This document shows positions 1 to 40,493 of a stretch of DNA of 43,375 bases, piece by piece. Where the stretch lies: assembly GCF_014653785.1 (NCBI RefSeq), contig NZ_BNAS01000009.1, positions 1 through 43,375 on the forward strand. Direction: 5' to 3'. Within the stretch, counting starts at the first letter, position 1. The number at the start of each line of letters is the position of its first letter. Both the position numbers and the translations under genes were made by a program. Below the pieces are notes generated by a model. It ran no database searches, was not told the origin of the DNA, and saw only the letters and a list, made by a program, of their open reading frames with translations. The DNA is from Promicromonospora soli. Lineage in GTDB: Bacteria; Actinomycetota; Actinomycetes; Actinomycetales; Cellulomonadaceae.

Positions 1-3000
1 CACCGACACGAGTTCGCGCAGCACCACGTCGTCACGCAGCGCGTCCGCCAGGTCCTGCACCGTCCGCGTTACCGGACCCTGCGCGTCCTGCCACAGCTCA
101 GGCCCTTCCAGCCGGTCCAAGATCGCCGACCGCACGGCCTCATCCTGCTGCTTCGCCCACGGCGTCCGCGCCCACCGCCGCTTGTACTCCGGCTTCTCCA
201 GCAAACGGATCGTCTTGTCCGACTCGATCAAATTCAACCGCCGCTGCACGACCTCGGCATATGCACTTGGCCAAGACGCTGGCAGATCTGTAATCGGCTG
301 GAACTTGTGATTGTGGTGGGTAAACCACTTTGTGGCCGTGCCCCCAGCTTCAATCTCACGTGCGAGGCAAATCGCGAATGCCCGCTCTGACGGACCGAGC
401 TCAATCACACCCTGATAGTTCAACTCTTCGTCGATCAGGCCATACAGGCGGTACACCTCCCAATCTAGCTCTTCCTGCTCAAAGACCATTTGGGCACCGA
501 TCTCCTCCGACCTGCGATGAGCGCTCTGCAGGCGGTCCACCAGTCCTCCGGTTGCCCCGGTGGTCGATCCAGTCGCGGCCTCATCCAGCCACCCACGCAC
601 GACGGTGGCCGGACTCACCTTCCCGAGCGCCGTCGCTGCTAGGTCGAGTCGACGCCCCCGCTCCAGCGGAAGGGCCCCCGGAAGAGGAAACTCCAGAAGT
701 TTCGTACCAGTGAATTCCCAGTTCCAGGACCATGGCTGGTCGGGGATCCCGCTCGACGCGGTCGCGTTTCCCTTGCTATGACTGACCTGTTTGAGCCAGA
801 AGCATGCCGTCGAGCTATTCAATACCCCTAGCATTTCCAGGTACTGCTCCTCGGACGACCCTTCAGGCAGCATGATTACCGGGGCATGCCGGTTGAAGAC
901 CTTTCCACCGCGACTGAGCGCAGCATGGAAGTGTGTTCCGATCGACGCAAAAGCCAGCAGTAGTGGGGATTGATACCTTTCAACGATCCACCGATACCAC
1001 GTCCACCAATCATCACCGGCTTCCTTGCGAGTAATCCCCCCGAATCCGGTCGTCAACTCAAGAACGGCACGGAAACGCCATAGATGGCGCCCCCATGCAG
1101 ACGACCCATCATATGGCACTGGCATAAATTCCGCGTCATACGGCGCGAGGGCCATTTCTCCATCCCGAAACGACCAATCACGGACGAGGTCGCCAGTAAC
1201 ATAGGGCCTGCCGAGGCTATCTCCATTTCTAAAGCGCCTAAACCAACTGGGACCGATCACGAACGGCTCGTCGCTTCCTGGAAAACTCGCCGGCCCAATA
1301 TCTCTCGATATCCCGTCTCGCAAACGCCGCCGACCGCTCGAGTTGACCAACTCGAACACGTCGCCTGCTCCGCCACCAGTCAGTGACCAAGGAAACTTCC
1401 TCAGCACGTCCCGGCTCACGTCAGCGACCGACACATAGAGCCCGTCGAAGCCTGGCTCTGCCAGGTGCTCGACGATCTCGGTCCAGACCGCCCCCCTTGC
1501 CGGATCATCGGGCTGGCCTGGTTCACCGCGCACGCCCAAGACTGTTCGAACAGTCTCTTCCACCGGGCGTCGCCGCCGGCCCACAAGGATCACGGTGGGC
1601 GTGCTGTGGCCAGGAATGTACGCACCTGAGGTGTCGATGACCTCGGTAAGGTCCACCGGGTTGTCCTGGTGATACCCCGCAAATAGGTCTTCGATGAGCC
1701 TTTTGCCGAACTCGCGCTTCATGAACGAGTTGCTCGTGATCTGCCCAACATGGCCCGCAGGTCTGCCCTGGAAGCCCTTGGCGGCCAGACGGAAGAACAG
1801 CTCCATAAACGGGACGCTCAACGCGTACTTGCCCGCAGTCGTCGAGTACGCCGCTCGATACGCTGCATTGAGAGCCTTGTCCTTGACCGTGATGTACGGC
1901 GGGTTGCCGACGACCACGTGGTACTGGCCCGGCGTCAGGATTCCCCCGTACTCTGAGAGGTCCTCCGTGTGCTTCTGGAAGGCCGCACCGACAGGCTCGG
2001 CCTCCGGTGAGCCAGCCGTCGGCTCAAAGGTGTGCCCCAGGTCCAGCTGCCCGAAGATGACCTCGTCGGCCGTGCCCTGCTTGCCCTGCTCGCCCAGGAG
2101 GGAGTCGCCGATCGCCAGGTGGAAGCCCAGCGCAGGCACGTCAACCAGGGACTTCTCGCCCATCGCCAGGAGGCCCGCCACCGTGAGGCGGAAGCGGGCG
2201 ATGGCCACCGCGAACGGGTTGACGTCCACGCCGTGGATCGAGTTCAGCGCTTTGCGGACCCGCTCCTTGGCGTCCATCGCAGGCGCCTTCTCGCGCCACG
2301 CCGCATCGATCCGCGCGAACGCACCCAGCAGGAAGTGACCTGACCCGCAGGTTGGGTCGATGAGCTTCAGGTCTTCCAGCGCCGTCTCGCGCAGCGCCGG
2401 TGTCAGCGTGCGGTCGAGGATGAATTCCTCAACGAAGTCCGGAGTCTGGAGCAGCGCGTAGGTCTTCTTCGCATGGTCGGACAGGTCCTGGTACAGGTCA
2501 CCCAGGAAGCGGGTGCCGAGCTCCGGGTCGTTGAAGTCGTGCACCAGGTTCCCAGAGTCGTCCGTCCGGCGCCAGAACGCGATCAGGTCGGACGCCGCCT
2601 CCGGAGAGATCTCCGCCGACCAAACCGGGTTGTGCCGGCGGTCCACCAACGCCGCCCCCACGGGCTGGGCAGCGAGCACCGTGAACGACTGCTGCAGCCA
2701 GTGTCGACGGTTGTGTAGTGGGTTGGCGCGGAAGTACGCGTCCAGGTTCTCCTGAGCGCGCTGGGTCCGATCCCCCGGGCCCGCGATCCAACCCACGGCG
2801 ACCTGCCTGCCGTCCAGCCACGCCCCTGCCAGGAGGTCGTTGTCCTCGCAGAACCGCACGAATGTCGTCGCGATCAACCATGCGACAGCGGCCTGGTCCA
2901 CCTCGTCGTCGCGCCACGTGACCCACGACCGGGCGGTCCGCTCGGTGCGCAGCGCCTCAGCATGCTCGGACCGGAGCTCCTTGCCCCAGACGTTGTCCGC

Positions 3001-3084
3001 TTCGTCCGCCCGCTCGCGCAGGTCGGCCTGGAGGCGCTTGAGCTGACCCTGCAGGTCCTTCAGCAGGACGGGCGAGTTGATCAC
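1..3084 (-). CDS. pglX: BREX-2 adenine methyltransferase PglX, second tandem copy (partial, 3' end outside window)
   Basis: PglX is the N6-adenine methyltransferase that marks host DNA in type 2 BREX. The frame is open from a GTG at 3084 to the left edge (1028 codons) with no stop, so this copy is cut by the window rather than broken. It carries the SAM motif DPTCGSG and the catalytic NPPY (Asn at about residue 394, bases 1894-1905). The N-terminal ~500 residues and the last ~80 visible residues are nearly identical to the copy at 3158-6826, while the central, presumably target-recognising, part is clearly diverged. Its start and ribosome binding site sit in a repeat of the end of pglW. It lies 73 bp downstream of the first pglX and is probably in the same transcript. 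The family assignment is firm; distinct specificity is inferred. Confidence 0.88.
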   Translation of the reverse strand, partial: MINSPVLLKDLQGQLKRLQADLRERADEADNVWGKELRSEHAEALRTERTARSWVTWRDDEVDQAAVAWLIATTFVRFCEDNDLLAGAWLDGRQVAVGWIAGPGDRTQRAQENLDAYFRANPLHNRRHWLQQSFTVLAAQPVGAALVDRRHNPVWSAEISPEAASDLIAFWRRTDDSGNLVHDFNDPELGTRFLGDLYQDLSDHAKKTYALLQTPDFVEEFILDRTLTPALRETALEDLKLIDPTCGSGHFLLGAFARIDAAWREKAPAMDAKERVRKALNSIHGVDVNPFAVAIARFRLTVAGLLAMGEKSLVDVPALGFHLAIGDSLLGEQGKQGTADEVIFGQLDLGHTFEPTAGSPEAEPVGAAFQKHTEDLSEYGGILTPGQYHVVVGNPPYITVKDKALNAAYRAAYSTTAGKYALSVPFMELFFRLAAKGFQGRPAGHVGQITSNSFMKREFGKRLIEDLFAGYHQDNPVDLTEVIDTSGAYIPGHSTPTVILVGRRRRPVEETVRTVLGVRGEPGQPDDPARGAVWTEIVEHLAEPGFDGLYVSVADVSRDVLRKFPWSLTGGGAGDVFELVNSSGRRRLRDGISRDIGPASFPGSDEPFVIGPSWFRRFRNGDSLGRPYVTGDLVRDWSFRDGEMALAPYDAEFMPVPYDGSSAWGRHLWRFRAVLELTTGFGGITRKEAGDDWWTWYRWIVERYQSPLLLAFASIGTHFHAALSRGGKVFNRHAPVIMLPEGSSEEQYLEMLGVLNSSTACFWLKQVSHSKGNATASSGIPDQPWSWNWEFTGTKLLEFPLPGALPLERGRRLDLAATALGKVSPATVVRGWLDEAATGSTTGATGGLVDRLQSAHRRSEEIGAQMVFEQEELDWEVYRLYGLIDEELNYQGVIELGPSERAFAICLAREIEAGGTATKWFTHHNHKFQPITDLPASWPSAYAEVVQRRLNLIESDKTIRLLEKPEYKRRWARTPWAKQQDEAVRSAILDRLEGPELWQDAQGPVTRTVQDLADALRDDVVLRELVSV

Positions 3085-3108
3085 TGGGGTGCTCCGGGAA
3101 TCTCGAGG
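3085..3108 (-). repeat. duplicated pglW tail with ribosome binding site
   Basis: These 24 bases match 6827-6850, the last codons of pglW (ending LEIPGAPQ), with one mismatch. Here they stand outside any pglW gene, directly before the GTG of the second pglX. The segment supplies the GGAG ribosome binding site 7 nt before that GTG. It indicates that the pglX duplication unit began inside the 3' end of pglW. Confidence 0.85.
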
Positions 3109-3157
3109 CTTGCAAGTGTTTGGACAACAGCCTTGACACCAAGGAAGCGCCGCAAGG

Positions 3158-6100
3158 TCATCGCTTCATTCGCCTCACCGGTTCGGGCGTCCACGCCGTG
3201 ACCTGGTCGCGTGTCATCTCCAACCGCGCCAAGTGCTGGTCGATCGTCCCAGACACCACGGCGGCCGCGCTCGTGCCGAACGCCGGCTCGATCTCGGAGT
3301 GCCACTGCGCCACCCACGGCTCCAGCTCCACGAGCCCGGCCACTAGCGGCACCACAGCCTCGTCCGACGCCCCCCGCGACTGCTGCGCCAGGATCTCCCG
3401 CGCCAACGCCAGCGCCTGGTCGCGGTGCGGCCAGCCCGCCCACCCGAGCAACACCGTGGGGTCGCCATCGTGCCGCACGTCCGGGTACGCGACGAACCGC
3501 TCCTTGGGCACGTCGAGCTTGCCGCGCGCCTTCCAGTACTCGACCTTCCGGAAGTCCGGCGTCGAGTACTTCGGCGGCACCGGAATCGTGACCTTCTCCC
3601 CCGCGTCCTCCCGACGCTGCAGATCCCACACCTGCTGCCACGTGCGGAACTTCTCCAGGCCCGACGGCTTGTACCGCTGCGCCGCCAGGTACGGCACGGC
3701 CTGTTCAGCAACCAGGCCTGACAGCACCGTCGCCAGGTTCGGCTCCGCATGCCCCGACAACACCGACACGAGTTCGCGCAGCACCACGTCGTCACGCAGC
3801 GCGTCCGCCAGGTCCTGCACCGTCCGCGTCACTGGACCCTGCGCGTCCTGCCACAGCTCAGGCCCTTCCAGCCGGTCCAAGATCGCCGACCGCACAGCCT
3901 CATCCTGCTGCTTCGCCCACGGCGTCCGCGCCCAGCGGCGCTTGTACTCGGGCTTTTCCAGCAGACGGATCGTCTTGTCAGACTCGATCAGGTCCAGCCG
4001 CCGCTGCACGACGTCGGCATACCCGCCCGGCCACGAAACCGAGAGCTCAGTGAGGGGCTGGGACCCGTGGCGTTCGAACCAGACAGTTTCCTCGGACCCG
4101 TCGGCCACATGCCGCGCGAGTGCGATCTCGAACGCCCGCTCCCCCAGCGCCAGCAGCGGTACGTCGCCCGTCGGAGCGGTCAGGTCCTCGTCGATCAGCC
4201 CGTAGAGCCGATAGACCTCCCAGTCCAGCTCCTCCTGCTCGCGAACCATCTGCCCACGGATCGCACCGACAGAGTACGCAGCAGCGGCCAACCGCTCCGC
4301 CAGCGAGTCGCTCCCGGTGGTCGAGCCCGTCGAGACCCCGTCCACCCACTCCTGCACAACGACGCCCGGGCTCACCATCGCGAGCTCCGTCGCCAACGCA
4401 TCGAGCCGCCGCCCACGCTCGAGCGGCAGTGTCGCCGGAAGCGGGAACTGGCTGACCTTTGTGCTGTTGAACTGGTAGAACACCTCCCACTCGTCCTGCA
4501 TGAACCCGCCGGTACCTGACTGGCTGCCCTTGTCGTGGCTGACCTGTTTGAGCCAGAAGCACGCCGTCGAGCTGTTCAGCACCGCGAGCAGCTCCAGGTG
4601 CCGCTCCTCCGGAGCACTCTCGGGCAACGTGATCACAGGCGCAGTCTGCTTGAATACCTTCCCACCCCGGTCCAGCACGAAGTGGTTATGCGTGGCAACC
4701 TCCGCAAACGTAATGGACAGCGAAGTCAAGTAACGTTCCCGTACCCAGCGATACCAGGTCCACCAGTCTTCCCCGCTCTCTGCACGAGTCTGGCCACCAA
4801 ATCCAGTTGTCCCACCGAGGGTCGTTCGGAACCGCCACAGATGGCGACCCCAGGATTTCGAAGACTCGTAGGGCAGAGGTCGATAATCAGGCCCGTATGG
4901 CGCCAGCGCATATTCGTCAGGGCGCACATCCCAGTCGCGAACAACTTCACCCACAACAAGATCGCGCCCGAGATTGCGAGAATCCGGGAAGCGCTTGAAC
5001 CATGGCAGCCCCAAGAAGAATGGCTCATCGTTTCCCGGGAAACTTGCGAATCCAATTTCCATAGCAAGGCGTTCACGAAGACTGCCAATCTGCACCGTCC
5101 GCATGGCTTCGAACACGTCGGCAGCGCCACCACCACTCAGGGACCACGGGAACTTCGTTAGCGTGGCACGGTCGAGGTCTGCAACAGAAATGTAGTTCCC
5201 GTCATACCCCGCTTCGCCGAGATGACCAACGATCTCAGTCCACACGAGCCCCTTCGCAGGGTCAACAGGCTGACCCGGTTCTCCACGCACGCCCAGGACC
5301 GCACGGACGGAGGCCGTGACCGGGCGACGCCTGCGGCCAACCAGGATGACGGTCGGCGTCCCATGACCAGGGATGTAGGCGCCTGAGGTGTCGATCACCT
5401 CGGTCAGGTCTACCGGGTTGTCACCGTGATAACCAGCGAACAGTTCTTCGATCACTTTCTTGCCGAACTCGCGCTTCATGAACGAGTTGGACGTGATCTG
5501 GCCGACGTGTCCTGCCGCCTGGCCCTGCTCGCCGCGCATAGCCAGGCGGAAAAAGAGTTCCATAAAGGGCACAGACAGCGCGTACTTGCCAGAAGTAGTC
5601 GAGTACGCCGCTCGATACGCCGCGTTCAGTGCCTTGTCCTTGACCGTGATGTACGGCGGGTTTCCCACCACGACGTGGTACTGGCCCGGGGTCAGGATTC
5701 CTGAATACTCGGAGAGGTCTTCGGTGTGCTTACGGTAGGGGGTATCGACAGGCTCGACCGTCGATCCGAGCGTGTCTCCCATGTCGAGCTGTCCGAAGAG
5801 GAGCTCGTCGGCCGTGCCCTGCCTGCCCTGCTCGCCCAGGAGGGAGTCGCCGATCGCCAGGTGGAAGCCGAGCGCCGGCACTCCAACGAGGGACTTTTCG
5901 CCCATCGCCAACAGACCCACGACCGTCAGTCGGAAGCGCGCGATGGCCACCGCGAACGGGTTCACGTCCACCCCGTGGATCGAGTTCAGCACCATCCGGA
6001 CCCGCTCCTTGGCGTCCATGGCCGGCGCCTGCTCACGCCACGCCGCATCGATCCGACCGAACGCACCCAGCAGGAAGTGGCCTGACCCGCACGTAGGGTC

Positions 6101-6826
6101 GATTAGCTTCAGGTCTTCCAGAGCCGTCTCGCGCAGCGCTGGCGTCAGCGTGCGATCGAGGATGAACTCCTCGACGAACTCGGGCGTTTGCAGCAGCGCG
6201 TACGTCTTCTTCGCGTGGTCGGACAAGTCCTGGTACAGGTCGCCCAGGAACCGGGTCCCGAGGTCCGGGTCGGTGAAGTCATGCACCAGGTTCCCTGCGT
6301 CGTCCGTCCGACGCCAGAACGCGATCAGCTCAGACCCCGCCTCCGGAGAGATCTCCGCCGACCACACCGGGTTATGTCGCCGGTCCACAAGCGACGCACC
6401 GGCAGGCTGGGCGGCGAGCACCGTGAACGACTGCTGCAGCCAGTGTCGACGGTTGTGCAGCGGATTGGCGCGGAAGTACGCGTCCAGGTTCTCCTGGGCG
6501 CGTTGGGTCCGATCGCCCGGGCCGGCGATCCAGCCCACCGGGACCTGCGTGCCGTTCAAGGTGGCGCCGGCGAGCAGGTCGTTGTCCTCGCAGAAGCGCA
6601 CGAACGTCGTCGCGATCAACCATGCGACAGCAGCTTGGTCCACCTCGTCGTCGCGCCACGCAACCCACGAACGAGCAGTCCGGTCGGTACGCACCGCCTC
6701 TGAATGCTCGGACCGGAGTTCCTTGCCCCAGACATTGTCCGCGTCGTCGGCCCGTTCCCGCAGGTCTGCCTGGAGACGCTTGAGCTGACCCTGCAGGTCC
6801 TTCAGCAGCGCGGGCGAGTTGATCAC
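3158..6826 (-). CDS. pglX: BREX-2 adenine methyltransferase PglX, first tandem copy
   Basis: This is a full-length 1222-residue PglX, the usual size for the family. PglX methylates adenine at a BREX recognition site and is required for phage restriction. The SAM-binding motif I DPTCGSG is at residues 243-249 and motif IV NPPY at 389-392, so catalysis should be intact. Residues about 530-945 form the part that differs from the second copy at 1-3084. The GTG start at 6826 overlaps the pglW stop by 4 nt (GTGA), and the ribosome binding site GGAG lies within the end of pglW, so translation is coupled. Two short stretches (4316-4337 and 5741-5759) resemble a dispersed actinobacterial repeat. BREX partners pglY and pglZ are not in the window and would be expected beyond the left edge. 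Confidence 0.93.
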   Translation of the reverse strand: MINSPALLKDLQGQLKRLQADLRERADDADNVWGKELRSEHSEAVRTDRTARSWVAWRDDEVDQAAVAWLIATTFVRFCEDNDLLAGATLNGTQVPVGWIAGPGDRTQRAQENLDAYFRANPLHNRRHWLQQSFTVLAAQPAGASLVDRRHNPVWSAEISPEAGSELIAFWRRTDDAGNLVHDFTDPDLGTRFLGDLYQDLSDHAKKTYALLQTPEFVEEFILDRTLTPALRETALEDLKLIDPTCGSGHFLLGAFGRIDAAWREQAPAMDAKERVRMVLNSIHGVDVNPFAVAIARFRLTVVGLLAMGEKSLVGVPALGFHLAIGDSLLGEQGRQGTADELLFGQLDMGDTLGSTVEPVDTPYRKHTEDLSEYSGILTPGQYHVVVGNPPYITVKDKALNAAYRAAYSTTSGKYALSVPFMELFFRLAMRGEQGQAAGHVGQITSNSFMKREFGKKVIEELFAGYHGDNPVDLTEVIDTSGAYIPGHGTPTVILVGRRRRPVTASVRAVLGVRGEPGQPVDPAKGLVWTEIVGHLGEAGYDGNYISVADLDRATLTKFPWSLSGGGAADVFEAMRTVQIGSLRERLAMEIGFASFPGNDEPFFLGLPWFKRFPDSRNLGRDLVVGEVVRDWDVRPDEYALAPYGPDYRPLPYESSKSWGRHLWRFRTTLGGTTGFGGQTRAESGEDWWTWYRWVRERYLTSLSITFAEVATHNHFVLDRGGKVFKQTAPVITLPESAPEERHLELLAVLNSSTACFWLKQVSHDKGSQSGTGGFMQDEWEVFYQFNSTKVSQFPLPATLPLERGRRLDALATELAMVSPGVVVQEWVDGVSTGSTTGSDSLAERLAAAAYSVGAIRGQMVREQEELDWEVYRLYGLIDEDLTAPTGDVPLLALGERAFEIALARHVADGSEETVWFERHGSQPLTELSVSWPGGYADVVQRRLDLIESDKTIRLLEKPEYKRRWARTPWAKQQDEAVRSAILDRLEGPELWQDAQGPVTRTVQDLADALRDDVVLRELVSVLSGHAEPNLATVLSGLVAEQAVPYLAAQRYKPSGLEKFRTWQQVWDLQRREDAGEKVTIPVPPKYSTPDFRKVEYWKARGKLDVPKERFVAYPDVRHDGDPTVLLGWAGWPHRDQALALAREILAQQSRGASDEAVVPLVAGLVELEPWVAQWHSEIEPAFGTSAAAVVSGTIDQHLARLEMTRDQVTAWTPEPVRRMKR
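4316..4337 (-). repeat. dispersed-repeat-like stretch inside pglX
   Basis: The top strand reads as a variant of the element GGTCTCGACAGGCTCGACC in reverse orientation, within codons for a Gly/Ser/Thr-rich linker of PglX. The second pglX has a decayed version at the matching place (about 550-575). The linker context suggests a tolerated insertion. Confidence 0.45.
5741..5759 (+). repeat. dispersed-repeat-like stretch inside pglX
   Basis: The stretch reads GGTATCGACAGGCTCGACC, one base from the element seen at 41110 and 43057. On the coding strand it encodes part of a VEPVDT-like linker between the two methyltransferase motifs. The other pglX copy has a different, longer linker here. Confidence 0.5.
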
Positions 6827-9800
6827 TGGGGTGCTCCAGGAATCTCGAGGGGTGCAACGGCGGCGAGCGCCGCAGGGTCAGACGGAAAAGTGAGCCAACC
6901 GCTCGGCCCCACAGGCACGGAGGCGCCTTCGAGGACCGGTGCTGGCTGGTCTGCGGACTTGGCAACGAGCAGCCAGCGGGTGGCGGGCCGCGGCGTGCCG
7001 ACGTCAAGGAACTGCGCGAGCAGCGGGGTCATGCCGTAGCGGACGAGCGGGCCGGCATTGGTTACCAATAGTGGAACCGGACGCGCCAGCTCGTCCTCCC
7101 AACGCGGCCGCACGGCGTCACGTACGAGGGCAGCGAGCATGTTCCAGTCCGCACTGCCTCGGTCCAGTCCGTCGACTCCGACGACGAAGGACCAGTCGAT
7201 TCCCTCGCGCTCAGCAAGTGTCTTTGTGGCCTGGACAAGCAGGCTGCCCACGTCGAGCAATTCCAAGCCCCGGGCGGCATAGCCGGAGGCAATGATGTGC
7301 GTCGCCCGCACATACCGGCGCGGGTCCACCGCCAGCGTCAGCGCAGCATGACGGGAGAATGAGTCGGCAAGCTTCCGAGCGACGTCGACATCGGGCGTCC
7401 CGGCGCCACCGTGTGTCGTCAGGCTGGTGCCAGTGGCCGTGGAGGCACGGTTGGAACCGGGCGTCTCGTACCGGCCGTCCACGTTTCGCACGCCTGGCAG
7501 GACCTTCGCGACCAGTTCGTCGAGGCGGACCTGGGTACCCGGCAGCCGTACCTCGGGGAACCTCGCCGATACACTGCGCCGCACTGCCTCGACGCTCAGG
7601 CTCCGCCCCGGCTTGCCGCGCAATGCATGCTCAAGCGCGATACGAACCTCAAGGTTGCGGGGGTAGAGCTCCTCGAAGCCGGAGACCGCTGCGTTGTCGC
7701 TCGCCGAGGCTGCCAAGCGCAGCAACCGATGGTCGGGTAGGTACGCGTCGCCCAGTGTCTCGCCGAGCACCGCGCGCAAAGCGCGTGCCGCGGGAACGTG
7801 CCCGATCACGCCGTCTCGGACGAGGTCGTCGGCCTGGCGGCCGAGATCGATCGCTAGGTCGCCCAGCTCGTCGGCTGTGGGCGCCGGCGCATCGAGATCC
7901 TCGGCGAGCACCGACTCGGTCAGGGCGAGCAGCGGGTCACGGCCTTGGGAGCGGCGGCGCAGGTTGAGCGCCGGGTTCGGCATCCGCAGGTCCAGCTCGT
8001 AGACAGCACGCAGCAGCGCGCGGCCCTGGCCGACGCGGGCCGGGCCTTCGAGCAGCGAGCCTCGCTGTGCGGCCAGAGCCGTGGCGAGCTCTGGGACGGT
8101 CATGATGCGGCCGGCGTCCGCGAGGATGCGCAGCACTTCGGCGTGTACTGCGTCGAGGACGCTGCCCTGCCCGGCAGGGGTGCTGGTCCACATCATGACG
8201 GCGGCTTCGATCTCGCTGTTGACCTGCTCGCGACTCAGGCCGAGCTGCTGGCCGGCCTCCGCGGGAGTAGGCCAGGTCAGAGTGAATTTCGGTGCCTTGT
8301 CGGACAGGCCGACCACTGTGCGAATGACAGTGGTGTCGCCATCGAGGCGGCCCAACAGGCCTTCAACCACGCGCTCGGTGCCCGACGCGTCGTCGTCGTT
8401 CGTCCGCGCGGGCGTGCTGAGCCGTTCGCGCCATTGGCGGATGCGGCCCTGGATCTCCTTGCGGTACTTCTCGCCGAGTCCCCGGATCGAGTTGACACGC
8501 ATGGGGTGGATGCCGAGCAGGTCGCCGACTGTGACCGCTTCGTCAAGGCGCGCGAGGGCGGACAGGGCGCGGGCCGAGAGACCGGACTGTTCCAGGAGTG
8601 TCTCGACGGTCGCCCGTGCAGCGCGGGCGTCATCGGCCCCGGTGGTGTCGTCGTCGGCGTCGAGGGAGGCAAATGCCTCGTGCCAAGCGACGGCAAGCTC
8701 GTCGACCGTGCCGAAGCGGTCCTTGGCGTCGGGCGACAGGGCGCGGCGGAAGAGTGCGGTGAGCGGGACTGCAACGGCCTGCTCGAAGCCGCCGGGGTCG
8801 ACGACGGGGGCGTCAGTGGCGTGGGCCGGGACGCCCGCGCCCTGGCCCCACCAGGGGAGTTGGCCGGTGGCCATCTCGAACAAAGTCGCCGAGACGGCGT
8901 AGATCTCAGCCGCACGGTCATAGACCGTACGGCGGCCGCGGCCAAGGTACGGGTCGAGATAGCCGGTTGTACCGGACCGCAGGTTCTCCACGGGTTCGGT
9001 GGCAAGCGAGAAGTCGAAGAGAACGAGGGTCGGGCGACGCGTGCCCGGGTCCTCGCGGATACCGAGGTTCGCCGGCTTGATATCCCGATGGAACACGCCC
9101 TTGCCGTCGAGATAGCTCATCGCTTCCAGCAGTTCGGAGCCAAAGCGTTCGAGCTGCCCCAGGGTGGCGCGCCCCTCGGTGGTGAGACGTGCAGCAAGAG
9201 TCTCCGGTCCGGCGTCGGACAGCAGGAGACCACGGCGGCCATCGAGGTCGAGCGGGCCTTCGAGGAGCCGAACGACGCGCTTATGGTCCAGCCCCTTCAG
9301 AATCTGCGCCTCGTTGTCGAGCGCGCGCGCCGCGACGTCAGTGCGGGCGATCTTCAGAATCAGCTCACGGTCACGACCTGCGTCATCGCCCACCGTGTCG
9401 TCGAGCACGGCGAGCGCGACGCCGCTGGAACCTTCGCCGCGGCGCCGTGAGACCAGAAAGCGGTCGGCGATCATGTCTGCGGTCTGAGCGTCGAGGGGGT
9501 CGGCAACAGGCGTCCGGACCTCGTCAACCGCTTGGCGCCGAACCTCGTCCCAGGCATCCCGGACCAGACCAAGAACCTCGTCGATCGTGGCCGGCCGGTC
9601 GGACTCGACCACGCTGGTGGCCAGCGTGACAGCCACGGCCAGGTCGTCGGGAACGCCCTGTGCCGCGCGTCGGGGGTCAAGCCCGCCGAGCTCTGCGTGA
9701 ACCTGCTCCAGCTCGGCAAACGTGGCCGCGGGGGCGGTGCCGGTAAGGATGAGGTAGGCAAGTGCCCCGAAGCCATACACGTCCAGGGGGACGCCGGGCA

Positions 9801-11037
9801 GTTCCGTCGCGTTCTGCCGCGCCTCGGGCGCCAGGTAAAGCCAGTCCTCCTGGTTGGACGCGCCCATCAGGTCGGCGAGGCCCCCACTGATGGCGGTCCA
9901 ACGAGAGGTCGCGTCCGTCGAGCGGTCCTTCTGGCCGAAGTACCAGTCTCGGATTGTCACGCGCGGCAGGCCACGCTTGCGCGGGGTCACCCAGATGCGC
10001 GCCGGCGCCAGCGCGCGGTGCAGGAGGTGACGCTGGTGTGCGTACCGCAGGATCTCGCCGAGCCGGGTGATCAGACCAACGCGCTCCTCCATCGTGAGGT
10101 TCGCGCCATCCGCCGCAAGGTAGTCCGACAGTGGTGTGGAGGCGTCGTCGTGGTCGAAGACTAGGGCCGGACCATCGTCGGTCTTCTTGAAGTCGACCGG
10201 AGCCGCAATGCCGTCGTTACTGATGCCGTAGGTCAGCTGGAACTCCCGCTGAGCCAACTGCTCGATCCGGGTGCGTTCGCTCGTCGGCGCCTTGGGCGGC
10301 ACGTCGTACAGGCGCAGACGACGCTTGATGCTCGGCATCGCAGGCAGCTGGACCAACACGTCGTGCCAGTCAGGTCCCTCTGCGATCGGCGTCGAAGAGG
10401 CGACCTCGAAGTCGCCGACCATGCGGACCTTCGGCGTCTTGCGGAAGCCCGCCTTGTCACACAGGGCGCGCACCTGCTTGGCCTGTACCCCGTCAATGCG
10501 ATGATGCGGATTGCTCGGCAGCGCGCCAACGAACTGACTCAATGTCTGGAGCGGCTTCTGCGGCTTCTGCGTCTTGACGTCGTAGTCGTCCAGGCGAAGA
10601 ACGTTGGACAGCCCGAGCTCGTCGACCTTGACCATGCTTCCATGACCGTGCAGCACCACGAGAGCCTTCACGAACGGCAGCGTCTTGGCCGCTGCCGGAC
10701 TCGGCGCATACGACTTCAAGAGGCTCGACAACCGCTTGGCCTTACGATCCGTCAGCAGCCACGGATTCTCGACGTTGCGAGTCCCGTGGTACCAACGCTG
10801 TGCCGTGCCACTTATGGTGCCGTGCCACCCCTTGAGCTCCACCACGAAGAAGCCGGCCGGCGAGAGCAGGAGGACATCGATCTCTGCGCTCCGGCCGTTG
10901 CTGTCGATGAACGTCAGGTTCGCCCAAGCCGTGGTGACGCCGTCGTCAGGAAGGACCTCGCGGACCTTCTGGAGCGCCTTGTCTTCGGCAGGCGTCACTG
11001 GCTCGCCCATGACGATCCAGCGGGAGTCAGGCAGCAT
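6823..11037 (-). CDS. pglW: BREX-2 serine/threonine kinase PglW
   Basis: PglW is the large kinase specific to type 2 BREX. The 1404 residues begin with a NERD nuclease-related domain (about 40-140) retaining D54, E67 and K69 (the D...ExK pattern). A first kinase-like domain (about 280-500) has HRALAP at 340-345, with Ala replacing the catalytic Asp, so it is a pseudokinase. A second kinase domain (about 525-790) looks active: glycine loop 534-539, K562, HRD at 650-652, N657, and DFS at 675-677 in place of DFG. The remaining ~600 residues include a helix-hairpin-like stretch near 850-900. The ATG at 11037 has a GAGG about 10 nt upstream. The gene is the first of the leftward BREX operon and its stop overlaps the pglX start by 4 nt. 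Confidence 0.92.
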   Translation of the reverse strand: MLPDSRWIVMGEPVTPAEDKALQKVREVLPDDGVTTAWANLTFIDSNGRSAEIDVLLLSPAGFFVVELKGWHGTISGTAQRWYHGTRNVENPWLLTDRKAKRLSSLLKSYAPSPAAAKTLPFVKALVVLHGHGSMVKVDELGLSNVLRLDDYDVKTQKPQKPLQTLSQFVGALPSNPHHRIDGVQAKQVRALCDKAGFRKTPKVRMVGDFEVASSTPIAEGPDWHDVLVQLPAMPSIKRRLRLYDVPPKAPTSERTRIEQLAQREFQLTYGISNDGIAAPVDFKKTDDGPALVFDHDDASTPLSDYLAADGANLTMEERVGLITRLGEILRYAHQRHLLHRALAPARIWVTPRKRGLPRVTIRDWYFGQKDRSTDATSRWTAISGGLADLMGASNQEDWLYLAPEARQNATELPGVPLDVYGFGALAYLILTGTAPAATFAELEQVHAELGGLDPRRAAQGVPDDLAVAVTLATSVVESDRPATIDEVLGLVRDAWDEVRRQAVDEVRTPVADPLDAQTADMIADRFLVSRRRGEGSSGVALAVLDDTVGDDAGRDRELILKIARTDVAARALDNEAQILKGLDHKRVVRLLEGPLDLDGRRGLLLSDAGPETLAARLTTEGRATLGQLERFGSELLEAMSYLDGKGVFHRDIKPANLGIREDPGTRRPTLVLFDFSLATEPVENLRSGTTGYLDPYLGRGRRTVYDRAAEIYAVSATLFEMATGQLPWWGQGAGVPAHATDAPVVDPGGFEQAVAVPLTALFRRALSPDAKDRFGTVDELAVAWHEAFASLDADDDTTGADDARAARATVETLLEQSGLSARALSALARLDEAVTVGDLLGIHPMRVNSIRGLGEKYRKEIQGRIRQWRERLSTPARTNDDDASGTERVVEGLLGRLDGDTTVIRTVVGLSDKAPKFTLTWPTPAEAGQQLGLSREQVNSEIEAAVMMWTSTPAGQGSVLDAVHAEVLRILADAGRIMTVPELATALAAQRGSLLEGPARVGQGRALLRAVYELDLRMPNPALNLRRRSQGRDPLLALTESVLAEDLDAPAPTADELGDLAIDLGRQADDLVRDGVIGHVPAARALRAVLGETLGDAYLPDHRLLRLAASASDNAAVSGFEELYPRNLEVRIALEHALRGKPGRSLSVEAVRRSVSARFPEVRLPGTQVRLDELVAKVLPGVRNVDGRYETPGSNRASTATGTSLTTHGGAGTPDVDVARKLADSFSRHAALTLAVDPRRYVRATHIIASGYAARGLELLDVGSLLVQATKTLAEREGIDWSFVVGVDGLDRGSADWNMLAALVRDAVRPRWEDELARPVPLLVTNAGPLVRYGMTPLLAQFLDVGTPRPATRWLLVAKSADQPAPVLEGASVPVGPSGWLTFPSDPAALAAVAPLEIPGAPQ

Positions 11038-11476: not shown

Positions 11477-13684
11477 TCAGCGCAACCAGATGCGCAGGTA
11501 GCTCCCTCGCTCCTCTCCCAAGCCGGCGGCAGCCCAATTGGCTGTCTGCCCGGGCTCGTCGCTCCGCACGTCGACATTGGTGCGGTTGAGATAGGCGCTA
11601 CCTCCGACGCACTTCACGACGAACCCCCAGCCCGGCCATGAGGCATCGGGGTCTGCCAATTGCATGCCAACGGATGCGAGCGCGGCGACCAAGGGCGCCA
11701 GGGAGCCCACCGGTTGTCCAGGCACGGGCTCCACCAATGCTGCCGCGACGTGCTCGGCTGGCGCCCGCACCGGTACGGCCGGTTCAGGCGCGGAGGAAGC
11801 CTCTCGGCTCCGCCCACCGAGCGTGTTCGGACTTGGCCACACGCGAGTTGCCACTGCTGCGAGGAATGCCCCTCGCGCGTCGATCTCGGACTCACTCCAT
11901 TGCTCGACAGCAGCGATTCCCTTGTTGATCACCAGGGCGCCCTGCTTCGCAAACTCCGGCCGCTTCGCGGTCCACCCCAAGTTCGAGACGTCAAGATTGA
12001 ACGCCTGAGTGACGAGGGTCAGGTTGCCAAGTCGGTCGAGCGCCTGCCCACGCAGCAGAACGCGTTGGACAGCCTCGGTGTCACCGGCGTCGGGGTCAGC
12101 GTCGACAAGATTGCCGGCAGCATCGCGCAGTGGCCAATGCGCCTTCCAGCTGCGCGGCAGCACGTGCTCGATCTGCAGTCCGTCGAATCCGATCGCCGCG
12201 GGCGGCTCATGTGGGTCGTCACGTCGGAGCTGGTCGTCAATCGCCTCGAACAGCGTGCGGATCCGGTACTGCGCCACGTTCTTGTAGAACGGCCGCGTCA
12301 TGAACGCATCGCGGACTTCGTTGTCAGTAGGCCATGCAAGCGTGCCACCCTGCAGTGCGTCGACGACGGCATCCGCAACGTTCTCGCCTGATGCGGCGGC
12401 ACTCTTCGCCTCCCGCAGAACCCGGGTGAGGTGCGTGCCGTAGCCACGCGTCTGCCAACCAACGTAGACCCGGCGCAGCGCCCACGATTCGACCGAGCGC
12501 ACGGCGCGTACCTCGTCCTCCAGACTCACTACCTGCGGTGACGCGATGCGTAACCAGGCGAGGAGGGGCACCGACGTCGTGATCTCGAACGCGTTGAGCC
12601 GGTCGTACGACGTGCGCAGGCGCGGATCCACGGCTTCGGCGCCGTAGATTGCCCGGTACGCCTTGGCATAGTGACTGAGCTCGCGCAGGACATGCTCGGT
12701 ATCAGGAGCGCCGGGCCCATTCAGGTACTCCCGCGCCTCGCGATACAGGTGGCTTACGTTCGCCTCGGAGCCTGAGATGCCGGTAAGCCAGACCGACAGC
12801 AGGACGTCGCGACGGCCGCGCGCCGCGTGGCCACGGCCAACGATGACCTTCCACCAGTCATCGTCGAAGTGCGCCCAGTACGCGTCGTAGAGCCGATCGA
12901 CATCCTCGTCAGCAAGTTCGCCCCGAAGGAAGAGAAGGTTCTTGACGAGATCAATCGCCGCGAGCGGAGTCTGACGACCGTTGAGCACCTCGAAGATGAC
13001 CTGAGCGTCGTCGTTGTCCTCGAGGTCGATGACGACCAGCTTGAAAAGGCTCGACAACGCGTCTGCCAGCGCCTGTAGACGGACGGGGTCCAGTTCGCCG
13101 GCGTCGTTGCGTGCACTCTCGCGCACGGCCTCGGAGAAGTACCGGCGCGCTCTGAGGTAGAGGTGGTCCTTGTCCCCGGCATAGGCAGGCACCGTGTCGG
13201 CCATCGCGGCGGGCCACACTTCGCGATCTCGTCGCCGTGGCCAGAGCTTGTGAACCTCCTCAGGCGAGTCCACGACGTCGTCCGGGTTGAAGAGCATGCG
13301 GCGGACGGACTTGCGACGATCCGACCCAACATCCTGGAGAACGTCAAGCAGACCGCGCACGAGGAGCTGAATCGTCGTGAGCCGCTGCTGACCGTCGATG
13401 ACCGAGCGCAGAGCAATCCCGCCCGTGGCGAACGGAAGGCTCGCGCACACGACCGCGCCAAGAAAGTGCGGCGTGACGCCCTGCTCCTTGTTCTTCAGGC
13501 CTACCGCCTTCTCGTCCTCGTCCGAGCGAACTTCGAGGAGCTTGTCCGCTGTGCTCTCCAGGTCTTCGAATAGGAGTTTCCACTGACCGTCGAGGGTCCA
13601 CTCGTAGTCCCGCTGGAACGTCGGGATGATGTACCGCCGCTCCGGCTTGAGGATGTCCTGCAGCGGGTAGGTCTTTGCGTCCAC
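11477..13684 (-). CDS. DUF262/DUF1524 protein, GmrSD-like modification-dependent restriction enzyme
   Basis: The family joins an N-terminal DUF262 domain (ParB-like fold, nucleotide use) to a C-terminal DUF1524 HNH-type nuclease, as in GmrSD, which cuts modified phage DNA. Seen here, from the chosen start: FQRDYEW at 23-29, the DUF262 signature DGQQR at 97-101, and a DUF1524 EHVLP motif at 506-510 followed by an LGNLTLV segment. The product is 735 residues, a single fused polypeptide. An upstream ATG at 13699 would add five residues, but AAGGAG lies 4 nt before the GTG at 13684, so I prefer that start. It is divergent from the GTPase gene and next to BREX, which fits a defence role. The nuclease target is not known. 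Confidence 0.82.
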   Translation of the reverse strand: MDAKTYPLQDILKPERRYIIPTFQRDYEWTLDGQWKLLFEDLESTADKLLEVRSDEDEKAVGLKNKEQGVTPHFLGAVVCASLPFATGGIALRSVIDGQQRLTTIQLLVRGLLDVLQDVGSDRRKSVRRMLFNPDDVVDSPEEVHKLWPRRRDREVWPAAMADTVPAYAGDKDHLYLRARRYFSEAVRESARNDAGELDPVRLQALADALSSLFKLVVIDLEDNDDAQVIFEVLNGRQTPLAAIDLVKNLLFLRGELADEDVDRLYDAYWAHFDDDWWKVIVGRGHAARGRRDVLLSVWLTGISGSEANVSHLYREAREYLNGPGAPDTEHVLRELSHYAKAYRAIYGAEAVDPRLRTSYDRLNAFEITTSVPLLAWLRIASPQVVSLEDEVRAVRSVESWALRRVYVGWQTRGYGTHLTRVLREAKSAAASGENVADAVVDALQGGTLAWPTDNEVRDAFMTRPFYKNVAQYRIRTLFEAIDDQLRRDDPHEPPAAIGFDGLQIEHVLPRSWKAHWPLRDAAGNLVDADPDAGDTEAVQRVLLRGQALDRLGNLTLVTQAFNLDVSNLGWTAKRPEFAKQGALVINKGIAAVEQWSESEIDARGAFLAAVATRVWPSPNTLGGRSREASSAPEPAVPVRAPAEHVAAALVEPVPGQPVGSLAPLVAALASVGMQLADPDASWPGWGFVVKCVGGSAYLNRTNVDVRSDEPGQTANWAAAGLGEERGSYLRIWLR

Positions 13685-13867
13685 GGGGCTCCTTTGCATC
13701 TGCGACGTCGTTCATGATGTCAGGCCCGGGCGTACTACTGCCTACCGGCACGGGTGATCCTGGGCCCAGTCCATCGACTTGGCTGCTGGAACACCGTCGA
13801 TCATCGCCCGGGTGACTTTGGTGAGTTCCCGGTTCCGACAGCACAGGTCCGGGGTAGCGTCACCGCC

Positions 13868-21964: not shown

Positions 21965-25492
<3,528 letters not shown>

Positions 25493-25500
25493 GGGTGTTC

Positions 25501-25582
25501 TCCCTTCGCTGGCATGACCCAGATCAGGTTCGACGGTCGGCGCCCTGCGCCCTCTCAGCCCCGTCCGGGGCTCCCGTGCACG
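25501..25582 (-). promoter_or_regulatory. TPP riboswitch
   Basis: On the minus strand the segment has the hallmark parts of the thi-box: GGGGCTGAGAGGG, then ACCTGATCTGGGTCATGCC and GCGAAGGGAG. The final GGGAG doubles as the thiO ribosome binding site, pointing to translational control. A -10-like TATGGT lies at 25588-25593, so the transcript should begin at about 25581, just ahead of the aptamer. Confidence 0.95.
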
Positions 25583-25659
25583 CGACAACCATAGCCCGGC
25601 CCGCAGGAGTTCCAGGACCGTGTCTCGGGCACCCTCCGAAGGACGCCGCGGCGTCGGCC

Positions 25660-28433: not shown

Positions 28434-29319
28434 CGTCGGCGCGCCGGGCGCCGGAACGCTCGTCGGCGTGCTGGGCGGGGTCGGTCCGCTCGCGACGGTC
28501 CTGTTCATGGAACGCGTCGTCCGGCTGACCGACGCGGCACGCGACCAGGACCACGTCGACATGGTGGTGCTGCAGCACGCGACCGTCCCGGACCGGACGG
28601 CGTTCGTGCTGGGGCGCTCCAGCGACGATCCGGGGCCCGTGCTCGCCGCCGACGCGCGGCGGCTCGCCGGGGCCGGGGCCGGCTTCCTCGTGCTGCCGTG
28701 CAACACGGCACACGCGTTCGCCGGCGCGATCGCCGCGGCGACGTCGGTCCCGCTGCTGTCCGCGGTGGACGTGACGGTGGCCGCGGTGCTGTCGTGCGAC
28801 GCCTGGACCGGTCGCCTCAGCGGGCCGCGGCCCGAGGCCGTCGGGCTCCTCGCGACCGAGGGGACGATCGCGTCGGGCGTCTACACGGACGCCTTCGGCG
28901 CCCGCGGCATCAAGACCCTGGTGCCCGACGTCGCCGGTCAGGCGACCGTGACGTCGCTGATCTACGACAGCGTGAAGGCGGGCCGTGGCGGTGACCTGAC
29001 CGCGCTGGACGGCGTCGTCGCCAACCTGCGCCTCCGTGGGGCCGAGGCGATCGTGCTGGGGTGCACCGAGCTGTCTGTCGCGGCGGAGGCGACCCCTCCG
29101 GGCCTCCTGCCCGACGTCGTGCTCGTGGACGCCCTCGACGAGCTAGCCCGGGCAACGGTGCTGCGCTCGGGACGCCGGCTGCGCGCAGAAGGAGGCTCTA
29201 GTACTACAGCCGTAGATCGTGATACTCACGCGCTGTCCGGGTGCCCAGAGCGCGCCTGGCGCCACGAGGGCCGCCCGACCTCAGCCTCGAAGGCAGGTCG
29301 GACATCGACCGTGTCGTAG
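28426..29319 (+). CDS. aspartate/glutamate racemase family protein
   Basis: The family interconverts L- and D-Asp (or Glu) using two cysteines. Both are present: PCNTAH with C92 and GCTEL with C213, plus the GGVGP N-terminal loop. The start is TTG at 28426, with GGAG 7 nt upstream and 8 nt of overlap with the ligase gene, so the two are coupled. The family fold ends near residue 250, yet the frame runs on to 297 residues and overlaps the convergent NTF2-like gene by 94 nt; the tail is probably not conserved. It would supply D-Asp to the preceding ligase. Confidence 0.87.
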   Translation: MPDVGAPGAGTLVGVLGGVGPLATVLFMERVVRLTDAARDQDHVDMVVLQHATVPDRTAFVLGRSSDDPGPVLAADARRLAGAGAGFLVLPCNTAHAFAGAIAAATSVPLLSAVDVTVAAVLSCDAWTGRLSGPRPEAVGLLATEGTIASGVYTDAFGARGIKTLVPDVAGQATVTSLIYDSVKAGRGGDLTALDGVVANLRLRGAEAIVLGCTELSVAAEATPPGLLPDVVLVDALDELARATVLRSGRRLRAEGGSSTTAVDRDTHALSGCPERAWRHEGRPTSASKAGRTSTVS

Positions 29320-29669
29320 ATGATGTGGAGCTCGCTGATCTTCCCGTCCGATCCGAGCGTGGCCACGTCGACGACGTCGAACGGCGCCGCCGCGCCAGAG
29401 GGAAGGCGCCAGTCGAAGTGGAACCAGAAGCTCACCGTCGTCTGGCCGTCCTGGTTCTTGCCGCTCATCACAGACTTCAAAGTCAGGTTCGCCTGACTGG
29501 TGTCCGCGAACAGCTCCGAGTAGAAGTCCTGGGCTGGTCGGGGGCCGTAGAGCGGTGAGGGGACCACGCCATCGGCCGTGAAGAGACTGACCGCCAGCCC
29601 CACATCCGCGGCGCCGAGAGCGCGAAGGTAGGTGGCTACAAGCTCATCCGCTGCCGTTTGCACGTCCAC
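29226..29669 (-). CDS. NTF2-like (SnoaL-type) protein
   Basis: A 147-residue cone-shaped alpha+beta protein: an N-terminal helix with YLRALGAADVG, FTADGVVPSPLYGP, then strands with FWFHFDWRLP and VDVATLGSDGKISELHIIYD. The family includes small isomerases, cyclases and stress proteins; nothing marks a specific reaction. The start is a GTG at 29669. It converges with the racemase and overlaps its 3' end. Confidence 0.8.
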   Translation of the reverse strand: MDVQTAADELVATYLRALGAADVGLAVSLFTADGVVPSPLYGPRPAQDFYSELFADTSQANLTLKSVMSGKNQDGQTTVSFWFHFDWRLPSGAAAPFDVVDVATLGSDGKISELHIIYDTVDVRPAFEAEVGRPSWRQARSGHPDSA

Positions 29670-29700
29670 AAGGTACCGATTTCTTCGTCGCGGGTGCGAC

Positions 29701-39212: not shown

Positions 39213-40493
39213 ATGCTCGTTCGCTTCGAGGTCAAGAACTTCCGATCGATCTCAGACACAGTTGAACTCTCCATGGTGGCGGTCGACAAGGACCGCGCGG
39301 CCGCGCGCGACGTTCCCAACATCGGCGAGAGCGTCCTGACCCGGGCCGCGATCTACGGCCCGAACGCCTCGGGCAAATCGAACGTCCTTGCGGCCTTCGT
39401 GTGGCTGGTCGACGCGGTGCGCAATTCCCTGCGCATGTGGCAAGGCGCAGTCCCCGTCGAACCGTTCGCGTTCGCAGAAGGCCGCGACAAACCCACCGAG
39501 TTCACGGTCGATTTCGTGGTGGACGGAGTCCGCTTCGAGTACACGCTGGAGGTGACCAGCACCGCGATCCGGCGCGAGCGGCTGTACCACTACCCACAGA
39601 AGAAGCCCCGGAAGATCTTCGAACGTGCCGGTACAGATGTCACGATGAACCGGGCTCTTGGATCCGTGGGCCCATTTCTCGAGCTCTTAACACCTTCGAC
39701 CTTGTTGGTCTCGCTGGCTCGACGTTTTGAGGTCCCCGAGGCTTCGGCATTCGCCGATGCGCTGACCGCGACGATGGCATTCGGCAAATTACCCAACCCT
39801 CGTCCCTGGCTCGGGCTCACGCGGATCGAGGTGCAACAAAGCCCTCGTTCGACAGTCCGGCTCTTCGACTCGGAACGAGACGAGCAGGATGCGGTGTCCG
39901 AGAGTGAGCTCGCCGACGAGCGCGCTCAGGCGTTGGCCCTCTTGAGACTGGCCGATCTTGGTGTCGACGACGTCGTCATCGAACGCGAGACCATCTGGGG
40001 TGACACACGTGTCGGTACGCCTGGGACGGAGCCCCGGCCACGCATGGTCCACCGGACGGCAACCGGCAACGCAATGCTCGACCTGCACCAGGAGTCCGAA
40101 GGCACGCAGACCTGGTTCGCGCTGATCGGCCCGGTGATCCAGTCGCTGCGCCAGGGATCGCCGATCATCTTCGACGAGCTCGACGCGAGCCTGCACCCGG
40201 TGCTGTCGGCGGAGCTGCTGCGCCTCTTCCAGGACACGTCGACGAACCCGAGAGGTGCCCAGCTCATCTTCACGTCGTACGACACGAGCCTCCTGAACCA
40301 TCTGAACCGCGACGAGGTGTGGCTCACGCAGAAACGGCCGGACGGTTCGACGGAGCTCGGCGCCATCGCCGAGTTCGCGGGGGAGCGTGTACGCAGGTCC
40401 GCGAACATCGAGTCGGCGTATCTGCACGGCCAGTACGGAGCGCTCCCCGACATCGACCCCGCTGAGCTGCGCAATCTCGGACTGATCGGCTGA
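39213..40493 (+). CDS. AAA15/RloA-AbiL-like ATPase
   Basis: A 426-residue ABC/SMC-type ATPase like those in RloAB and AbiL abortive-infection systems. It begins VRFEVKNFRSI, with Walker A GPNASGKS at 49-56, a signature-like SEGTQ at 295-299, and Walker B IIFDELDASLHP at 318-329 (D321, E322). A D-loop and a His-switch-like LIFTSYDTSLL follow. The usual partner gene (RloB-type) is absent: the next gene downstream runs the other way. It may work alone or be the relic of a pair. Confidence 0.86.
   Translation: MLVRFEVKNFRSISDTVELSMVAVDKDRAAARDVPNIGESVLTRAAIYGPNASGKSNVLAAFVWLVDAVRNSLRMWQGAVPVEPFAFAEGRDKPTEFTVDFVVDGVRFEYTLEVTSTAIRRERLYHYPQKKPRKIFERAGTDVTMNRALGSVGPFLELLTPSTLLVSLARRFEVPEASAFADALTATMAFGKLPNPRPWLGLTRIEVQQSPRSTVRLFDSERDEQDAVSESELADERAQALALLRLADLGVDDVVIERETIWGDTRVGTPGTEPRPRMVHRTATGNAMLDLHQESEGTQTWFALIGPVIQSLRQGSPIIFDELDASLHPVLSAELLRLFQDTSTNPRGAQLIFTSYDTSLLNHLNRDEVWLTQKRPDGSTELGAIAEFAGERVRRSANIESAYLHGQYGALPDIDPAELRNLGLIG

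Follow-up and report, generated by a model that had tools for sequence, protein, structure and literature searches.

Two adjacent pglX genes with conserved ends and divergent presumed recognition regions in a BREX type 2 operon of Promicromonospora soli

The pglX pair and its operon

We analysed a 43,375-bp stretch of the Promicromonospora soli genome (contig NZ_BNAS01000009.1, here C9; the whole stretch is referred to as the window), one end of which carries part of a bacteriophage exclusion (BREX) type 2 operon with two neighbouring genes for the methyltransferase PglX. The operon is cut by the contig edge at window base 1, and three of its genes are readable on the minus strand: pglW (6823–11037), pglX1 (3158–6826) and pglX2 (1–3084). 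pglW starts the operon, encodes 1404 residues and scored 1087 bits with the NCBIfam model NF033442 (cut-off 990); its stop shares four bases with the start of pglX1. The two pglX products, X1 and X2, were both recognised by the model NF033451 (“BREX-2 PglX”, cut-off 400), X1 (1222 residues) with 1575 bits and the readable part of X2 with 1253 bits. This part comprises the first 1028 residues of X2, whose tail is located on a second contig of the same genome, C8 (L003:1–388). The S-adenosylmethionine (SAM) motif DPTCGSG lies at 6080–6100 in X1 (residues 243–249) and at 2338–2358 in X2; the catalytic motif NPPY lies at 5651–5662 (X1 residues 389–392) and 1894–1905 (X2 residues 394–397), all on the minus strand. 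An earlier reading of the window from its letters (the sequence-only reading) had described two tandem pglX genes in one BREX-2 locus, with open frames and both motifs in each copy, and our analysis bore this out.

C8 opens with a pglX 3′ end, followed by pglY, pglZ, brxD and brxHI. The operon is represented by pglW-pglX1-pglX2 on C9 and by the remaining genes on C8, with the join between the contigs inferred from two 69-bp matches. PglZ and BrxD of BREX type 2 were identified with NF033446 (701 bits, cut-off 200) and NF033438 (650 bits, cut-off 350), respectively, and BrxHI by PADLOC (912 bits). PglY was matched by the PADLOC BrxC-PglY model over residues 10–1217 (1225 bits) and scored 859 bits with NCBIfam NF047891, below the cut-off of 1700. 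All six proteins by which BREX type 2 was tested (PglX, PglW, PglY, PglZ, BrxD and BrxHI) were found. The presence of two pglX genes departs from the single copy that is usual, not defining, for this type.

The junction between the two copies carries a relic of pglW. The 31 bp preceding X2 (3085–3115, minus strand) match those preceding X1, which are the end of pglW, as seen in a self-BLAST of positions 1–3115 against 3761–6857 and with the sequences placed side by side. GGAG is located seven bases ahead of the GTG start of X2.

The second copy across the contig break

The 3′ end of pglX2 that is missing from the window was recovered on C8 through exact 69-bp matches at both contig ends. The end of C9 (window 1–69, minus strand) corresponds to X1 nucleotides 2998–3066 and the start of C8 to X1 nucleotides 3291–3359, leaving 224 bp between them unassembled. 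Equal overlaps on both sides fit what assemblers tend to leave at an exact repeat. The contig break thus probably lies inside a 362-bp exact repeat common to X1 (3468–3829, minus strand; X1 nucleotides 2998–3359) and X2, from which we infer the 224 bp of the X2 copy. The X2 tail keeps the frame on C8, and 113 of its 118 residues aligned with X1 agree; its last stretch differs, and a stop is present. The sequence-only reading had allowed for a stop or frameshift in X2 past the left edge, and none was found in the readable parts (the C9 part and the C8 tail). X2 is probably intact, with a length of about 1231 residues.

Because the contigs break inside X2, we considered an assembly artefact, in which the pglX genes of two strains were joined in tandem or more copies are hidden in the gap. 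This appears highly improbable. Both genes and the pglW-relic junction stand on one stretch without N, contamination is 0.51%, and Cellulomonas humilata shows the same order on one contig. A search of the P. soli genome itself returned only three pglX matches (X1, X2 and the C8 tail) and nothing pointing to a third copy, so a third pglX between the contigs was rejected.

X1 retains all 128 positions at which no less than 98% of 115 other PglX agree, and X2 retains 127 of them, the exception being G489S (X1 numbering). The N-terminal ratio of nonsynonymous to synonymous divergence (dN/dS) between X1 and X2 is 0.11 at a dS of 0.58; this ratio indicates purifying selection on the N-terminal chassis, and the dS led us to reject a recent duplication. 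Together with the SAM and NPPY motifs in both proteins, these values make it quite unlikely that X2 or X1 is a regulatory or functionless copy and not a marking enzyme itself. Such a role would find a precedent in the type 1 BREX of Lacticaseibacillus casei/paracasei Zhang, in which a second methyltransferase is present and N6-methyladenine (m6A) was reportedly lost only on inactivation of pglX (PMC10164179); the G489S substitution in X2 would also agree with it.

Unequal divergence along the two copies

The sequence-only reading had placed a divergent middle at about residues 530–945 of the first copy, and these borders proved right. In steps of 25 codons, protein identity between X1 and X2 is 80–100% over X1 residues 1–520, apart from one step of 50% at an indel (351–370), falls to 28–76% over residues 521–942, and returns to 96–100% over 943–1022. 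From this profile we delimited a variable block at residues 530–942 of X1 (4001–5239, minus strand), to which window positions 241–1482 (minus strand) correspond in X2. In X1, the block follows an Eco57I-type methyltransferase domain (residues 281–458) and runs into DUF7008 (from residue 860). On the basis of this domain order, the block is presumed to be the target recognition domain (TRD) together with a helical spacer. A profile of the whole protein matched five distinct PDB sequences at E-values of 5e-6 to 3e-5 (8c45, 9ewz, 8zek, and 7lni and 8cxz, which we take to be CamA); among these matches the variable block was reached by CamA-type alignments only, and weakly (domain i-E 0.14). PglX/BrxX is reported to be the site-reading component of type I BREX, with the first four base pairs read by its TRD, and to be required for both marking and defence (PMC11842806; PMC11341690). 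A 2026 comparative study assigns a common domain order to the type 1 and type 2 enzymes (PMC12839542).

The nearly identical ends reported earlier hold for the proteins but not for the DNA. Four-fold degenerate sites differ between X1 and X2 at 105 of 268 positions (39%) in residues 1–515, at 85 of 131 (65%) in the variable block, at 7 of 44 (16%) in residues 943–1022, which begin the C-terminal part, and at 21 of 65 in the tail from residue 1098. With region boundaries picked after viewing the identity profile, the N-terminal part differs from the variable block at p = 1.5e-6 and from residues 943–1022 at p = 0.002. Because silent sites escape selection for specificity yet diverge unequally, the segments differ in age. 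This pattern suggests that the variable block was exchanged and that the following stretch was homogenised later, as by gene conversion. The history of X1 and X2 is, on this evidence, not simply one of duplication followed by change, and is better described as a mosaic of segments of different age.

The tract resembling gene conversion shows that X1 and X2 recombine, which bears on a proposal of the sequence-only reading: that the second copy is a reserve, with recombination between the flanks switching the specificity of the locus. The exact tract adjoining the variable block, with a four-fold difference of 16% against 39% around it, shows exchange between the copies. According to one report, pglX is commonly phase-variable in BREX (PMC11341690), and another mentions a brxX homopolymer tract (PMC6326788). 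We nevertheless regard a switching reserve as very doubtful. The two copies lie on the same strand in direct orientation, with no inverted second copy, so recombination between them would give deletion of one copy by crossing-over, or conversion, and not reversible inversion; the longest homopolymer run within X1 and X2 is 6; and X2 has an open frame preceded by a ribosome-binding site, so that it can be read without any switch. Switching by recombination seems less likely on these grounds, and the proposal found little support.

Presumed recognition regions across the PglX family

To place this divergence, we compared 117 aligned PglX from two partly overlapping genome sets, from which exact duplicates over residues 31–1100 were removed; pairs in this set are not independent. 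Among the 158 pairs with N-terminal identity of at least 0.80 (X2 included), recognition-region identity was below 0.65 in 150 and reached 0.80 in none. When X2 was left out (116 PglX, 6670 pairs), the rank correlation between N- and C-terminal identity was 0.56, and that between N-terminal and recognition identity was 0.21. The median recognition identity was 0.46 at N-terminal identity of at least 0.80 and 0.43 at 0.45–0.60. Recognition identity is hardly tied to the kinship of the chassis, which points to module exchange and not to gradual change. PglX with near-equal bodies normally carry different readers, and the window presents that situation within one operon.

A related observation comes from Saccharomonospora iraqiensis (L126, L140), where three pglX are located in three contigs of one genome. 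Identity between two of these is 90% for the N-terminal part, 55% for the recognition region and 98% for the C-terminal part.

Over residues 1–515, X1 and X2 are nearest each other (89%), with the next nearest PglX at 76%. The N-terminal tree, built with a quick method, joined X1 and X2 with support of 100, and a grouping of X1 with L080, a PglX of another genus, was rejected for this part (p = 1.6e-5). Over residues 530–800, X1 shares more with L080 (65%) and with a Streptomyces PglX (L118, 59%) than with X2 (56%), whereas X2 is still nearest X1 (56%), followed by L080 (55%). In a tree of the recognition region, with 35 rows picked for likeness to the four tandem copies, X1 joins L080 at 99/93 and X2 comes next at 98/88. 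The suggestion of a duplicate with a changed recognition region was correct as to the location of the divergence, which begins beyond the methyltransferase domain and gives way to a conserved C-terminal part. A simple change after duplication agrees poorly with the silent sites of the block, with the grouping of the X1 region with another genus (subject to the clade test given below) and with the recurrence of the same pattern in almost all comparisons of close PglX from different species.

Occurrence of tandem pglX

We searched for further pglX genes at four taxonomic levels and counted a match as strong when it was near full length in the family search or had E <= 1e-60 elsewhere. Strong matches were found in 10 of 221 genomes of the family, with 10 more from an order search of 396 genomes, 48 from a class search of 394 and 2 from a phylum search of 396 that was run with the family model, giving 70 genomes in total. 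The searches scored two or three candidate places per genome, the sets overlap, and some of the 70 are partial or maybe not BREX-2; of the 38 genomes matched in the family search, 28 were excluded because their matches, short and with low scores, were taken to be other methyltransferases. Neighbouring pglX on the same strand occurred in 2 of the 70 genomes, those of the window and of Cellulomonas humilata, which upholds the earlier statement that ordinary BREX-2 loci have one pglX. Among the best 80 of 459 loci, a tandem of full-length pglX was present in that of C. humilata only, and both pglW and pglY accompanied pglX in 59. A literature search found no description of tandem pglX in BREX-2; the texts were covered in part, and this is weak evidence of novelty.

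In C. humilata, the tandem order continues on one contig through pglZ and beyond. Identity between its two PglX drops from about residue 300 and is back after about residue 905, with an extra conserved stretch at 705–754, and the copies are separated by ~55 bp resembling the pglY 5′ end and ~15 bp resembling the pglW 3′ end. In the N-terminal tree, the C. humilata copies are nearest kin of each other and stand apart from the window pair, so that the two tandems apparently arose independently.

Other arrangements of more than one pglX were encountered. In some genomes, two pglX lie at a distance from each other or are fragmented (G666, G685 and G740; G534, G772 and G799). In the last of these, the N-terminal part of a broken pglX (L094, 105–1448 and 5757–7703) follows pglW, and the C-terminal part precedes pglW on the opposite strand. 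Three candidates for tandem pairs were rejected: Streptomyces niphimycinicus (L128) has two pglX ~12 kb apart and 41% identical; Pseudonocardia oceani (L122) has one pglX, interrupted by ~2 kb with a frame that by inspection resembles a transposase; and on a Candidatus Thiodictyon plasmid the two annotated pglX are, by layout, one gene in two parts. In L088 (G221) and L097 (G702), ~5.7 and ~6.7 kb of other DNA separate pglX from pglY. Four full-length flanked loci of the best 80 (L126, L157, L161 and L162) have no other searched BREX-2 gene within ~10 kb, and their pglX are perhaps solitary.

Interpretation of the tandem

On balance, we favour the view that C9 and C8 carry one BREX-2 (Pgl-type) anti-phage operon, pglW-pglX1-pglX2-pglY-pglZ-brxD-brxHI, whose two PglX have a shared chassis and different recognition regions and specificities. 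Both PglX would be made and would work with the same PglW/Y/Z machinery. Each would methylate its own site in host DNA, and incoming DNA without either mark would be attacked. The second copy was most likely acquired as an allele differing in its recognition region, inserted between pglW and pglY; this insertion would have left the pglW 3′ relic that carries the X2 ribosome-binding site, and later conversion would have erased the differences in the stretch that follows the recognition region. The scraps of neighbouring genes at the junctions in the window and in C. humilata both fit a pglX segment inserted between pglW and pglY.

Several observations weigh against two specificities. In approximately unbiased (AU) tests on the recognition region, X1 and X2 are kept as a possible clade (p = 0.062), as is the C. 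humilata pair (p = 0.40). The recognition regions of X1 and X2 fall within one clade of three rows (98/88), and their identity of 56% exceeds the median of 0.46 for close-chassis pairs. A search of solved structures with a profile of the variable block found none (one row, E 0.97, judged chance). Finally, the second BREX methyltransferase in Lacticaseibacillus is reported not to have accounted for m6A (PMC10164179). By these comparisons it is possible that the motif of X1 and X2 is shared or overlapping. Both copies would then be active on the same or an overlapping motif and would provide dosage or redundancy, an explanation favoured by the identity, the common clade and the AU result for X1 and X2. 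We judge it unlikely, because the block, with 85 of 131 silent sites differing, stayed divergent as the parts next to it were homogenised, and because 0 of 158 close-chassis pairs have a recognition identity of 0.80 or above.

The interpretation of two specificities can be extended, tentatively, beyond the window. BREX-2 PglX may be built as a modular scaffold, with recognition regions passing between actinobacteria almost without regard to the chassis. Tandem pglX loci might then be natural two-specificity machines, in which one PglW/Y/Z is served by either methyltransferase, so that a single defence system may watch over two DNA signatures and a phage has to escape both motifs. They would be a counterpart in BREX of those type I systems that have several specificity subunits. 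Should X1 and X2 each produce a separate mark, losing one copy would remove one motif and leave the machinery in place, which amounts to a natural internal control. Such a control would address whether methylation and BREX-2 exclusion are governed by the same sites.

Neighbouring features

Just upstream of pglW and on the same strand, the window encodes a 740-residue protein of GmrSD type (type IV restriction; 11477–13699, minus strand; Pfam GmrSD_N and GmrSD_C; PADLOC Orf5 and mREase_IV). Its last ~100 residues (about 640–738) match shorter genes near BREX-2 genes in three other genomes (G197, G187 and G157), as well as one gene in C. humilata ~14 kb from the BREX-2 genes. This C-terminal portion is perhaps a domain that travels with BREX-2. 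A 451-bp stretch at 29225–29675 of the window is 98% identical to L003:12489–12939 on C8, so that one copy is located beside each half of the BREX locus. The window also contains an AAA_21 ATPase resembling the AbiLi/AriA defence proteins (39213–40493, plus strand) and a thiamine pyrophosphate (TPP) riboswitch (25484–25587, minus strand; 63.8 bits).

Comparison with known systems

L. casei/paracasei Zhang resembles the window in having two methyltransferases in one BREX system; that system differs in being of type 1 and in that its second enzyme was reportedly not responsible for m6A (PMC10164179). The gene order pglW, pglX, pglY, pglZ, brxD and brxHI is that of BREX type 2, the Pgl system of Streptomyces coelicolor, here spread across two contigs. 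The S. coelicolor type has one pglX, whereas the window has two as neighbours. A close likeness is the BREX-2 locus of C. humilata ATCC 25174 (L083/L105), which has pglW-pglX-pglX-pglY on one strand, with conserved ends and a different middle in the PglX pair and relics of neighbouring genes at the junction; unlike in the window, the copies are separated by a pglY 5′ relic, and their divergence begins earlier, at about residue 300. In type I restriction, several HsdS subunits may serve one machine, with exchangeable specificity parts between conserved flanks. The tandem pglX locus differs from type I systems with several HsdS in that the recognition region of PglX sits in the methyltransferase itself.

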